Positions 4,845 through 15,805 of a stretch of 64,000 nucleotides of DNA are shown piece by piece. Made by a program: the position numbers and the translations under genes. The number at the start of each line of letters is the position of its first letter. Position 1 is the stretch's first letter. The notes beneath the pieces are model-generated. The model saw only the letters and a program-made list of their open reading frames with translations, did not search any database and was not told the origin of the DNA. Source of the DNA: Alphaproteobacteria bacterium SO-S41 (lineage in GTDB: Bacteria; Pseudomonadota; Alphaproteobacteria; Micropepsales; Micropepsaceae); assembly GCA_019670725.1 (NCBI GenBank), contig AP024629.1:62001-126000 (forward strand). The letters are read 5' to 3'.

Positions 4845-5404
4845 GCCGCAGCAGTCAGCGGGTTGACGAATTCGGGGAACTGCTTGGCGATCTCGTCGCC
4901 GGTGAATTTCGCGACCCAGCCGTCGGGCGTGGTGAAGAGGCGGATGGCGGCGAAGAGCGGCTTGTCGCCGGCATCGAACCAATGCGTCGTGTTCTTCGGC
5001 ACCGAGATGAGGTCGCCGGCCGCGCAGACCGTGCGATAGACCTTGCCGCCGACGCGCAGATAGAACGCGCCCTGCCCTTCGACGAAGAAGCGGACTTCGT
5101 CGTCCTCGTGGATATGCTCGGCGAGGAACCTGGCGCGCATCGCGGCGCGGTCGGGATGGTCGGGCTTCATGCGCACGACATCGACGGACTGATAGCCGTG
5201 CGCGTTCGAAAGCCGCGCGACATCGGCCTTGTAGGCCTCGAGCACTGCGGCCTGATCGGCGCCTTCGTTCAGCTGCACGCCGGCGTTCCAGCGCTCGAAG
5301 ACGACGCCGATCTTGCTGAGCTCGTCCGCGATGCGGTCAGGGTCGGTCGCAACGACGAGGCGATCCCGGGGGTCGGCGTCGGGGGTGATGATGAGCTCGC
5401 TCAT
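4841..5404 (-). CDS. mtnD: Acireductone dioxygenase (ARD/ARD'), methionine salvage
   Basis: This 187-residue cupin oxidises acireductone with O2 to 4-methylthio-2-oxobutyrate plus formate (iron form) or to off-pathway products including CO (nickel form). The metal ligands are visible as two His and a Glu in HIHEDDEVRFFVEG (the H-x-H-x3-E signature), with the distal His in PKNTTHWFDAG. The start at MSELIIT is chosen because its ATG overlaps the mtnB stop as ATGA, and upstream codons look non-coding in this frame. Translation is probably coupled at both ends. Which metal is used cannot be told from sequence. Confidence 0.95.
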   Translation of the reverse strand: MSELIITPDADPRDRLVVATDPDRIADELSKIGVVFERWNAGVQLNEGADQAAVLEAYKADVARLSNAHGYQSVDVVRMKPDHPDRAAMRARFLAEHIHEDDEVRFFVEGQGAFYLRVGGKVYRTVCAAGDLISVPKNTTHWFDAGDKPLFAAIRLFTTPDGWVAKFTGDEIAKQFPEFVNPLTAAA

Positions 5405-6042
5405 GCGCGGCGCTCCTCTTCCAAAGTGAGATCCAACAGATGGGCGTAGGCTTCGAGGTGACGGCGCGTCTCGCGCAGATCCTTGCCCCAAGCATAGATG
5501 CCGTGGCCCGCGATGAGATAGCCGAAAACCGGGCCGCTCCAATCCTTCATCGCTTCAGAGACCCTTAAGCCGAGGCGGCGCGTGTCCTGATCGTTGGCGA
5601 AGATGGGAAGTTCGATCGTGCTTTCATGCGTGGTGATGCCGCGGATCGCCTTCTGCATCTCCCAGCCTTCGAGCACGATCTTGCCCTGGCTGAGATGGCG
5701 GCGCGAGAGCACCACGGCCGAGACCGGATGGGCATGCGCGACGGCGCCGATCGAGGGATCGTCCTTGTAGAGCTGAAGATGCAGCGGGCCCTCCGCCGAC
5801 AGGCGCGGATGCGGCGTGCCGGTCAGGTTCTCCTCGATGTCGCAGATGATGACGTTCGCTTCCGAGGTCTCGCCCTTGTCGCCGCCAGTCGCGGTGCAGG
5901 CGGCGCGGGCGAGGTCGATGCGCGCCGAGAAATTCCCGGCGGTCGCGGGCACCCAACCCTTCGCGCCGCACCAGCGGGCGAGCGCGATCACCGCCTGGAC
6001 GGCGTCGGGTTCGGTGAGGGCGGGAAAGACCGGAGCGTTCAT
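5401..6042 (-). CDS. mtnB: Methylthioribulose-1-phosphate dehydratase
   Basis: This 213-residue class II aldolase/adducin-fold zinc enzyme dehydrates methylthioribulose-1-phosphate in the methionine salvage pathway. Visible features are RWCGAKGWVPATAGNFSARI near residue 20, the metal-binding HAHPVSAVVLSR near residue 105 and the C-terminal GHGIYAWGKDLRETRRHLE with the third His. The start at MNAPVFPAL leaves the upstream region for a promoter. It is first in the operon and couples to mtnD by a 4-bp overlap. The isomerase (mtnA), the kinase or phosphorylase step and the transaminase are not in this window, so only the middle of the pathway is encoded here. Confidence 0.93.
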   Translation of the reverse strand: MNAPVFPALTEPDAVQAVIALARWCGAKGWVPATAGNFSARIDLARAACTATGGDKGETSEANVIICDIEENLTGTPHPRLSAEGPLHLQLYKDDPSIGAVAHAHPVSAVVLSRRHLSQGKIVLEGWEMQKAIRGITTHESTIELPIFANDQDTRRLGLRVSEAMKDWSGPVFGYLIAGHGIYAWGKDLRETRRHLEAYAHLLDLTLEEERRA

Positions 6043-6248
6043 GGGGGCGTTATATGGGGTGCAGCGCCGGAGGGGAAAGAGCGACAGATTATTTCGCGAG
6101 ATTGGAGAAAAGCATCTTCGTCTGTCATCCCCGTGACAGGGCGAGGTGTAGGGTCCGCCAGAAGTACGTTTTTTATGCAGTTGCGTGCGCCGCGGGGCTA
6201 ACGAAATCAACATGTTAGCCGGTTATGATGTGCGCTTAGCGTGGCTGT

Positions 6249-6323
6249 TGGCCTGTAGCTCAGTGTCAGAGCGGACCCTAGATTGGGGTCAGGTCGCAGG
6301 TTCAAGTCCTGCCAGGCCCACCA
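6249..6323 (+). tRNA. tRNA with isoleucine-like acceptor stem and abnormal anticodon loop
   Basis: A full cloverleaf with encoded CCA can be drawn. Acceptor 6250-6255 (GGCCTG) pairs with 6313-6318, but position 1 (T6249) faces C6319. The D stem is GCTC/GAGC (6258-6261/6269-6272), the anticodon stem GACCC/GGGTC (6274-6278/6286-6290), the variable loop AGGTC, and the T stem GCAGG/CCTGC with loop TTCAAGT. Discriminator A and CCA follow. The anticodon loop reads TAGATTG, which puts GAT (Ile) at 34-36 but has A instead of the invariant T at 33 and T at 37. The D loop is AGTGTCA, lacking the usual GG. All stems are intact, so it may be expressed, but it could be a decayed tRNA-Ile copy. The next gene ends three bases downstream. 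Confidence 0.55.
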
Positions 6324-6326
6324 CGT

Positions 6327-7076
6327 TTAGCCCACCAGCAGCCAGACGCCCTGTACGATCGAGATCGTACCGACGACCAGCACGATGCGGCGGGTCCAGA
6401 GGCGGAAGCCGGCGTTGGACAGCTTTTCCAGGATCGGGCCGGCGAGGGTTGTGCCGATGATCGCGGCTGAAATGGCGGCGCCGTAGACATCCCAGCCGAG
6501 CGTCGTGTTGCCGCTGAGGATCGCCGCGTAATAGCCGATCTTCAGCGTGTGGCTGAGCGCCTGGGTCGTCGCCTTGGTGGCGACGACGGCGCGGCGGTCC
6601 ATGGTCACCGAGCGGACGAAGAAGGTATCGAGCAGCGGCCCGGCGACGCCTGCCAGCAATTGCGTGCCCGCGACGAGGAAGCCGCACAGCACGGCATGCG
6701 ACGAGCGGGAGGCATCGAGTTTCACGGAGTCAGGCAGCGACAGCGCGATCCACGGCACGAGACCGAGCAGGATGAGCGCGGTCGCCTTGTCCGGCACATA
6801 GGCGATGGCGAGCGGCAGCGCGATCGCCGGCAAGGCACCGACCGTGTAGAGCCCGACGATCCGCCAATCGATCCACTTGCGCCACAGTACGGCCCGCCAG
6901 CCGTTCGAGAAGAACTGCGTGATCCCGTGCAGCACCATGGCCGGCGCCACCGCGAGGAACTGGGCGAGGATCAGCATCAGGATCAGCCCGCCGGCCATGC
7001 CGAAAATGCCCGACACGATCGAGGTGAAGATCACCGCGATGAAGAGCAGGAGGCTGAGCGGGAGGACGGCTAGCAT
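6327..7076 (-). CDS. TauE/SafE-family membrane permease
   Basis: This 249-residue protein has about eight hydrophobic segments and the family pattern at the N-terminus (SIVSGIFGMAGGLILMLIL) with a repeat-like second half (FLVAGTQLLAGVAGPLLDTFFV). Members of the family (formerly DUF81) are proposed exporters of sulfite, sulfoacetate or other small organosulfur or carboxylate anions. Nothing beside it reveals the substrate. It is divergent from the LysR-type regulator at 7306, with a REP pair and a shared promoter region between them, so control by that regulator is possible but not shown. Confidence 0.75.
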   Translation of the reverse strand: MLAVLPLSLLLFIAVIFTSIVSGIFGMAGGLILMLILAQFLAVAPAMVLHGITQFFSNGWRAVLWRKWIDWRIVGLYTVGALPAIALPLAIAYVPDKATALILLGLVPWIALSLPDSVKLDASRSSHAVLCGFLVAGTQLLAGVAGPLLDTFFVRSVTMDRRAVVATKATTQALSHTLKIGYYAAILSGNTTLGWDVYGAAISAAIIGTTLAGPILEKLSNAGFRLWTRRIVLVVGTISIVQGVWLLVG

Positions 7077-13132: not shown

Positions 13133-15805
13133 ATGAACGACCTAACCCCGCCCCCTTCTGACGCGCGCGTGACGCCGATGATGGCCCAGTACATGGCCAT
13201 CAAGGCGGATCATCCCGATGCGCTGCTGTTCTATCGGATGGGCGATTTCTACGAGCTGTTCTTCGACGATGCCGTGCAGGCGAGCGCCGCGCTGGACATC
13301 GCGCTGACCAAGCGCGGCAAGCATCTGGATCAGGATATCGCGATGTGCGGCGTGCCCGCGGTCGGGGCCGAGCCGTATCTGGAGAAGCTGATCCGTAGGG
13401 GTTTCAAGGTCGCGGTCTGCGAACAGACCGAGGCGCCGGCGGAAGCGAAAAAGCGTGGCGCGAAATCGGTGGTGGCGCGGGCGGTGATCCGCCTGGTGAC
13501 GCCGGGCACGCTGACCGAGGATGCGCTGCTGGACGCGCGCCGGCGGAATTATCTCGGCTGTCTCGCCAAGGCCGGCGGCGAACTAGCGCTCGCCTATGCG
13601 GATCTGTCCGACGGCGCGTTCGCGGTGGTGCGGCTCGCGCCCGCCGAAGTGGGTGCGGCGCTGGCGCGGATCGACCCGGCTGAGCTGCTGGTCAGCGAGG
13701 CGCTGGCCGACGATGCGGCGCTGGATGGCGCGATCCGGGCGCTGGGCGCGCGGGCGACGATCCTGGCCGCGCCGCGTTTCGACAGCGCGAATGGCGAGGC
13801 GGCGCTGAAGCGGCTCTACGGCATCGCGACGCTTGACGCCTTTGGCGCGTTCGGACGGGCGGAGCTCGCAGCTGCTGGCGCGGTCGCCGACTATATCAAT
13901 CTCACCCAGAAGGGCCGCGACGCGCGGCTGACCCCGCTGCGCTCGGAAGCCGAAAGCGGGATCGTCCAGATCGATCCGGCGACGCGGCGGAACCTCGAAC
14001 TCGTGATGACGCTCAGCGGCACGCGCGAGGGTTCGCTGCTCGCGGTGATCGATCGCACGGTGACGGCGGCGGGCGCGCGTGTGCTGAACGACCGGCTGGC
14101 CAGCCCCTCGACGGCCTTGGGCGTGATCACCCAGCGGCTGGATGCGGTCGGCTATTTCCTGGAGAGGCGCGAGCTGCGCACCGGCGTGCGCACGCAACTC
14201 CGTCAGACGCCGGACATGGCGCGGGCACTGTCGCGCATTGCGCTGGGTCGTGGGGGGCCGCGCGATCTCGCGAGCCTGCGCGACGGACTTGCCGCCGCCG
14301 CGGCGCTCGGCCAGGCGCTTGAGGCCGAGATCGCGCCGCCGCTCGAACTGGAAGAGATCGCGATCGCCCTGCGCAGCGGCGGCGATGCGCGTGCGGCCCT
14401 CGCCGCAAGGCTGGCGGCGGAGCTGAGCGACAGCTTGCCTTTGCAGGCGCGCGACGGCGGCTTCATCGCGGCGGGCGCGAACGGCGATCTGGATGGCGCG
14501 CGGGCGCTGCGCGACGATGCGCGCAAGGTGATCGCGGCACTGGAGACCGAGCTGCGCGCCGAGACGGGCATCGGCTCGCTGAAGATCCGGCACAACAATG
14601 TCGTCGGCTATCATGTCGAAGCGACGGCCGCGCATGCCGCGAAGCTGCTGGCCGAGCCCTACAAGGCGCGCTTCATCCATCGCCAGACGCTGCCCAATGC
14701 CGCGCGCTTCACGACGGCGGAGCTGAGCGATCTCGCGACGCGCATCCTGGAGGCCGGGGCGCGGACGCTGGAGCTGGAGCTCGCGATGTTCGAGGCGCTG
14801 TGCGCTGACGTGCGCGGCCTCGCCGAAGCGATCGGCGCGATTGCCGGCGCGCTCGCCAGCCTCGATGCCAGCGCGGCGCTCGCCGACCTCGCCGAGAGCG
14901 CGCAATGGGTGCGCCCGCTGGTGGACGAGAGCGACGCTTTCCACATCGAGGCCGGGCGGCATCCCGTGGTGGAGGCGGCGCTGCGCAAGGACGGCCAGAC
15001 CTTCACGCCGAACGATTGCGATCTCTCCAACGGGGCGCAGGGGCGACTCTGGCTCGTCACCGGTCCGAACATGGCGGGTAAGTCGACCTTCCTGCGCCAG
15101 AACGCGCTGATCGCCATCCTCGCGCAGATCGGCAGCTTCGTGCCCGCGTCGCGCGCCCATATCGGGATCGCCGATCGCGTCTTCAGCCGCGTGGGCGCGG
15201 CCGACGATCTGGCGCGGGGGCGTTCGACCTTCATGGTCGAGATGGTCGAGACGGCGGCGATCCTGACCCAGGCGGGGCCGCGCGCGCTCGTCATCCTCGA
15301 CGAGATCGGGCGCGGCACGGCGACGTTCGACGGGCTCTCCATCGCCTGGGGCGCGATCGAACATCTGCACGACATCAATCGCAGCCGCACGTTGTTCGCG
15401 ACGCATTATCACGAACTGACCGCGCTGGCCGCGAAGCTCTCCGGCCTTTCCTGCGTCTCGATGCGGGTCAAGGAATGGAAGGGCGATGTCGTCTTCCTGC
15501 ACGAGGTCGCGCCGGGCGCGGCGGATCGCAGCTACGGCATCCAGGTCGCGAAACTCGCGGGGCTCCCCACCGCCGTCGTCAAGCGCGCCGAGGCCGTGCT
15601 GAAGGCGCTGGAGAAAGGCGACACCGGCCGCAAGGCCGCGACGCTCATCGACGACCTGCCGCTGTTCAGCGCCGCGGCGGAGAAGGAAGAGGCGGCGAAA
15701 CCCTTGCCCGTGGTCGAGAAGCTCGCTGGCATCGACCCCGACGCGCTGACGCCGAAGGAGGCGCTGGAGTTGATCTATGCGCTGAAGAAGCTGGCCGCGC
15801 CGTGA
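13133..15805 (+). CDS. mutS: DNA mismatch repair ATPase MutS
   Basis: This 890-residue protein recognises mismatches and recruits MutL. The N-terminal mismatch-binding motif [15 protein letters not shown] (Phe-x-Glu wedge) lies near residue 35. Clamp and lever domains follow, then the ATPase with Walker [10 protein letters not shown] at about residue 644, the STFMVEM segment, Walker B/signature [12 protein letters not shown] and FATHYHEL. The start [10 protein letters not shown] is preferred over an in-frame ATG at 13097, which lies inside tetR. The gene overlaps the following acetyltransferase by GTGA. No mutL in the window. Confidence 0.97.

Follow-up and report, generated by a model that had tools for sequence, protein, structure and literature searches.

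Positions 6249 to 6323 of the window (the whole 64,000-nucleotide stretch of DNA that was analysed) hold what is, with a probability that we put at about 80%, a degenerate and redundant tRNA-Ile gene. That is to say, a pseudo-tRNA, recently acquired or duplicated, and non-decoding. The relevant features are listed below, each with its basis. Note that the two protein-coding genes carry family names: the TauE/SafE-type permease and mtnB, methylthioribulose-1-phosphate dehydratase, are what we take these open reading frames to be.

6249-6323, plus strand: tRNA-Ile-like cloverleaf with encoded CCA, the pseudo-tRNA (ARAGORN; Rfam RF00005).
6249, plus strand: T1, opposite C72 (6319), an unpaired first acceptor position (sequence; a non-pair in the Rfam alignment).
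6262-6268, plus strand: D loop AGTGTCA, 2 nt short and without G18G19 (sequence; alignment with Ile tRNAs).
6279-6285, plus strand: anticodon loop TAGATTG, with A33, GAT at 34-36, T37 and G38 (sequence).
6149-6158, plus strand: TAGGGTCCGC, the exact 10-nt reverse complement of 6271-6280, which is the 5' side of the anticodon arm (sequence).
6081-6129, minus strand: one copy of an intergenic motif that is dispersed in the genome; the end of this copy falls at the left end of the insert.
6084-6326, no strand assigned: insert of about 243 bp in the tauE-mtnB gap, specific to this lineage (comparison with the congeners G001, G002 and G004; composition).
6327-7076, minus strand: TauE/SafE-type permease gene (open reading frame; orthologues in congeners).
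5401-6042, minus strand: mtnB-like gene, downstream of tauE (open reading frame; orthologues in congeners).

Divided into its parts, the sequence at 6249-6323 reads TGGCCTG-TA-GCTC-AGTGTCA-GAGC-G-GACCC-TAGATTG-GGGTC-AGGTC-GCAGG-TTCAAGT-CCTGC-CAGGCCC-A-CCA. Six of the seven acceptor-stem pairs form, and all four stems are otherwise formed. ARAGORN, run on the window, calls tRNA-Ile(gat) here, and Rfam RF00005 matches 6249-6320. Since the match scores 47.3 bits, against a gathering score of 29, we conclude from the sequence that this is a real tRNA-derived element; a chance cloverleaf is excluded. An earlier note on this DNA described the element correctly: sequence, ARAGORN and Rfam agree with its coordinates, strand, CCA, TAGATTG loop, T1:C72 mismatch and missing D-loop GG. 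The 7-nt D loop could be explained by one 2-nt deletion from AGTTGGTCA, as found in tRNA-Ile2 of congener G002. Elements A73, C4-G69, U12-A23 and C29-G41, which we take to be those recognised by IleRS, can all be read in the sequence. In the predicted fold of the isolated RNA, T32:G38 and A33:T37 zip the anticodon loop, giving a 7-bp stem with a GAT triloop. We dropped this as a designed feature; 14 of 45 normal tRNA loops could zip likewise. A second ARAGORN call, tRNA-Ala(ggc) at 14812-14901 on the minus strand, was rejected as a false positive, being inside the mutS coding region and without Rfam support.

The genome is a single 4.44-Mb contig with 49 tRNA hits. The covariance-model check proposed in the earlier note places the element well above the cut-off and yet lowest of all 49; the next lowest hit scores 52.0 bits. 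T33, a purine at 37 and the D-loop GG are each kept in all 45 other distinct tRNA sequences of the genome. Positions 1 and 72 pair in 44 of these 45, the exception being, as expected, the initiator. A33, T37 and loss of the GG each break a feature with no other exception in the genome, which bears out the description 'non-decoding'. In tRNA structure, U33 makes the U-turn, A37 is the site of t6A, and the D-loop GG makes the elbow contact between D loop and T loop. Hence a transcript, if there is one, would have none of the three and should not decode. Compared with a canonical elongator tRNA-Ile, the element passes the covariance-model cut-off, and lacks both U33 with a purine at 37 and G18G19. 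Furthermore, the genome has a complete tRNA set even if the element is left out: there are two intact copies of Ile(GAU), both in rrn and each directly upstream of Ala(TGC), and one of Ile2(CAU). Therefore, the extra copy is redundant. It has what marks a pseudo-tRNA: derivation from a tRNA, absence of decoding features, intact isoacceptors elsewhere in the genome and, in the comparison with four congeners, lack of conservation at the locus.

In G001, G002 and G004, tauE and mtnB follow one another on the same strand, separated by 40-57 nt; the window has 284 nt at this place. A block preceding mtnB, from CCCCATATAA to GCCCCCATG, is common to the window and the congeners. The junctions of the insert, at about 6084 and 6326, were set by eye and are accurate to a few bases. 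Its right end falls 3 nt past the CCA, placing the tRNA-like gene at the end of the insert; the tauE stop codon is 3 bases from the 3' end of that gene. The part of the insert that is not tRNA has a GC content of 52%, compared with 67% for the window, and lies at the 0.4th percentile of the window. A consensus scan matched no promoter or terminator, though real tRNA promoters here may often depart from that consensus. No tRNA-like gene lies between tauE and mtnB in G001, G002 or G004, and none adjoins either gene in G003, where the two are apart. In G003 a tRNA does lie upstream of mtnB, at a distance of about 950 bp, but it was rejected as a counterpart, being a normal Ala(GGC). In the same-locus comparison that the earlier note called for, none of the four congeners has the gene next to tauE or mtnB. 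Because of this absence, the gene would have been gained in the present lineage or, less simply, lost in the congeners. Note that the nearest congener differs by protein, being G001 for MtnB and G003 for MutS, and this leaves some room for loss in place of gain.

The surroundings also contain repeats. The motif at 6081-6129 belongs to an intergenic family (loci L210-L230) of the form GAnnAACGAA[GC]ATGCTTT...TGTCGC. It has 9 copies in the present genome and 12 in G003; the remaining three congeners have none. The other copies, in G000 C1, are at 1298170, 1298285, 2091427, 3569183, 3569250, 3582899, 3725607 and 4383607. On the same strand, most copies are preceded at 66-212 nt by a promoter-like site, TTCCTATATT; in many G003 copies a C-rich stretch, CCCCTCCCC, lies just 5' of the core. 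The motif, which had no match in Rfam, may represent a small RNA with multiple copies or a mobile intergenic element. Separately, the sequence GCCCACCA occurs at the 3' end of the tRNA-like gene (6316-6323) and, after a gap of 6 nt, once more within the end of tauE (6330-6337).

The best matches to the element are 83% identical. They are tRNA-Ile2(CAU) genes from the bacterium's own family, such as those of G036, G022 and G008, and one Ile(GAU) gene of another family. In each of G001, G002 and G004, the best DNA match, and the only one, is a normal Ile2 gene; G003 has no match at E 1e-3. The likeness is split, with the acceptor and T arms matching the Ile2(CAU) of relatives, and the anticodon stem and GAT nearer tRNA-Ile(GAU) of G010. 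The Ile2 genes of G036, G022 and G008 share with the element the D stem, most of the acceptor stem, and the T arm (GCAGG/CCTGC). However, they have the anticodon loop CTCATAA, rather than TAGATTG, a 9-nt D loop with GG, and a paired G1:C72. The tRNA-Ile(GAU) genes (G010, locus L017; G205, locus L209; the genome's own rrn copies) have GAT at 34-36 in common with the element, and differ by T33, A37, A38 and an intact D loop. The anticodon stem of the G010 gene, CACCC/GGGTG, is very like the GACCC/GGGTC found here. Because differences of this kind occur between functional Ile tRNAs, the stem differences from the Ile2 and Ile(GAU) relatives probably predate decay. No donor closer than 83% was found among 385 genomes of the class and 398 of the phylum, and so we can only infer what the gene looked like at first and how many hits it took. 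The one loop pattern searched, GTAGCTCAG...AGAGC...TAGATTG, had zero matches in 85,000 genomes. Its sole match in the viral collection IMG/VR (L114) was discarded as chance, with no tRNA gene at that place. A viral tRNA-Ile with an identical anticodon stem (L240) was also rejected as a relative; it has another acceptor stem and normal loops.

The sequence itself, its rank by score, its redundancy and its absence from the congeners are observed; from these we infer an order of events, insertion then decay, with no function retained. In the present lineage, a segment of about 243 bp that ended in a tRNA-Ile gene would have entered the tauE-mtnB gap. Because intact Ile(GAU) and Ile2(CAU) genes were already in the genome, the extra copy would have been free to change. 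It may then have taken a few hits, those identifiable being G1 to T, one 2-nt deletion in the D loop, T33 to A, A37 to T and perhaps A38 to G. That the hits so far are few would explain why its stems still fold. Against reading the element as a pseudo-tRNA stand its four arms, which fold with one mismatch, and its Rfam score. The earlier note held that decay normally damages stems first, and this argument is not supported. Stems make up 42 of 73 positions, and random decay would leave at most one stem hit with a probability of about 11% for five hits, or 21% for four, where the hit counts are rough and the starting sequence is reconstructed. In addition, G-U pairs mask some stem changes. Since one stem hit or fewer in about five has a P of about 0.1, the intact stems are no evidence of selection.

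Could the element instead be a non-decoding tRNA-like RNA under selection, folded, perhaps charged, and with loops that keep it off the ribosome? Models would be tRNA-Other of Bacillus cereus and the staphylococcal cell-wall tRNA-Gly. Such an RNA would account for stems left intact beside an altered decoding loop, and the IleRS-type elements are retained. The upstream 10-nt complement of the anticodon arm also speaks for it. This inverted repeat, with about 110 nt between its halves, has a shuffle p of about 0.01. Nevertheless, the bias between stems and loops is not significant, and no enzyme that uses aminoacyl-tRNA was recognised, by eye, among the adjacent open reading frames. Nor is the element kept in several related genomes: it is missing at the locus in four congeners and undetected elsewhere in them, and its loop pattern is unmatched in 85,000 genomes. 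The same two results count against the 'special purpose' suggested in the earlier note. The Bacillus RNA is likewise a tRNA-like extra copy judged unfit for translation, but it occurs in several Bacilli and is expressed, and its deletion produces a phenotype (PMC3399842); the present gene has no counterpart beside tauE or mtnB in congeners. Selection of this kind is improbable. Recent recruitment of the element into a larger transcript, where pairing of 6149-6158 with 6271-6280 would switch it between two folds, perhaps acting against the opposite-strand tauE-mtnB message, is very unlikely. A divergent tRNA-Ile(GAU) that still decodes is hardly credible. While GAT at 34-36, the encoded CCA and an Rfam score above the cut-off would suit such a gene, its A33, T37 and lost GG depart from every other tRNA of the genome, which already has intact Ile(GAU) twice.

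The earlier note also raised a remnant of an attachment site, and such an origin is conceivable though unlikely. Here, an integrative element would have had its att site in a tRNA-Ile sequence that it carried, and would since have been deleted. Islands usually leave a partial tRNA beside an intact one, but the present copy is full length and has no tRNA neighbour. The tRNA does lie at one end of the insert, which is specific to this lineage, and GCCCACCA recurs close to the 3' end of the tRNA. However, both 8-bp copies are on one side of the insert, rather than flanking it, and neither a matching att pair nor a flanking direct repeat was found around the insert. There is no tyrosine integrase within 180 kb, the nearest PF00589 match being 184 kb away. 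Among the matches listed for a blastn search of the insert against phages and plasmids, there was only ordinary tRNA similarity. Non-canonical tRNA genes commonly arise through the integration of elements (PMC9897764). Like the present copy, genes of that origin score low and are called standard by automated tools, but they are mostly partial and beside their element (PMC9897764), whereas no element is recognisable here.

A degenerate, redundant tRNA-Ile gene is thus the reading that we prefer, and a degenerate extra tRNA gene is an ordinary kind of find. Prokaryotes commonly carry non-canonical tRNA genes of this general kind, and these are often recorded as standard ones (PMC9897764). For annotation, ARAGORN gives a normal tRNA-Ile(GAU) at 6249-6323, and a pseudo-tRNA flag is warranted. 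More generally, finding the stems intact in a single young tRNA copy is little evidence that it has a function.
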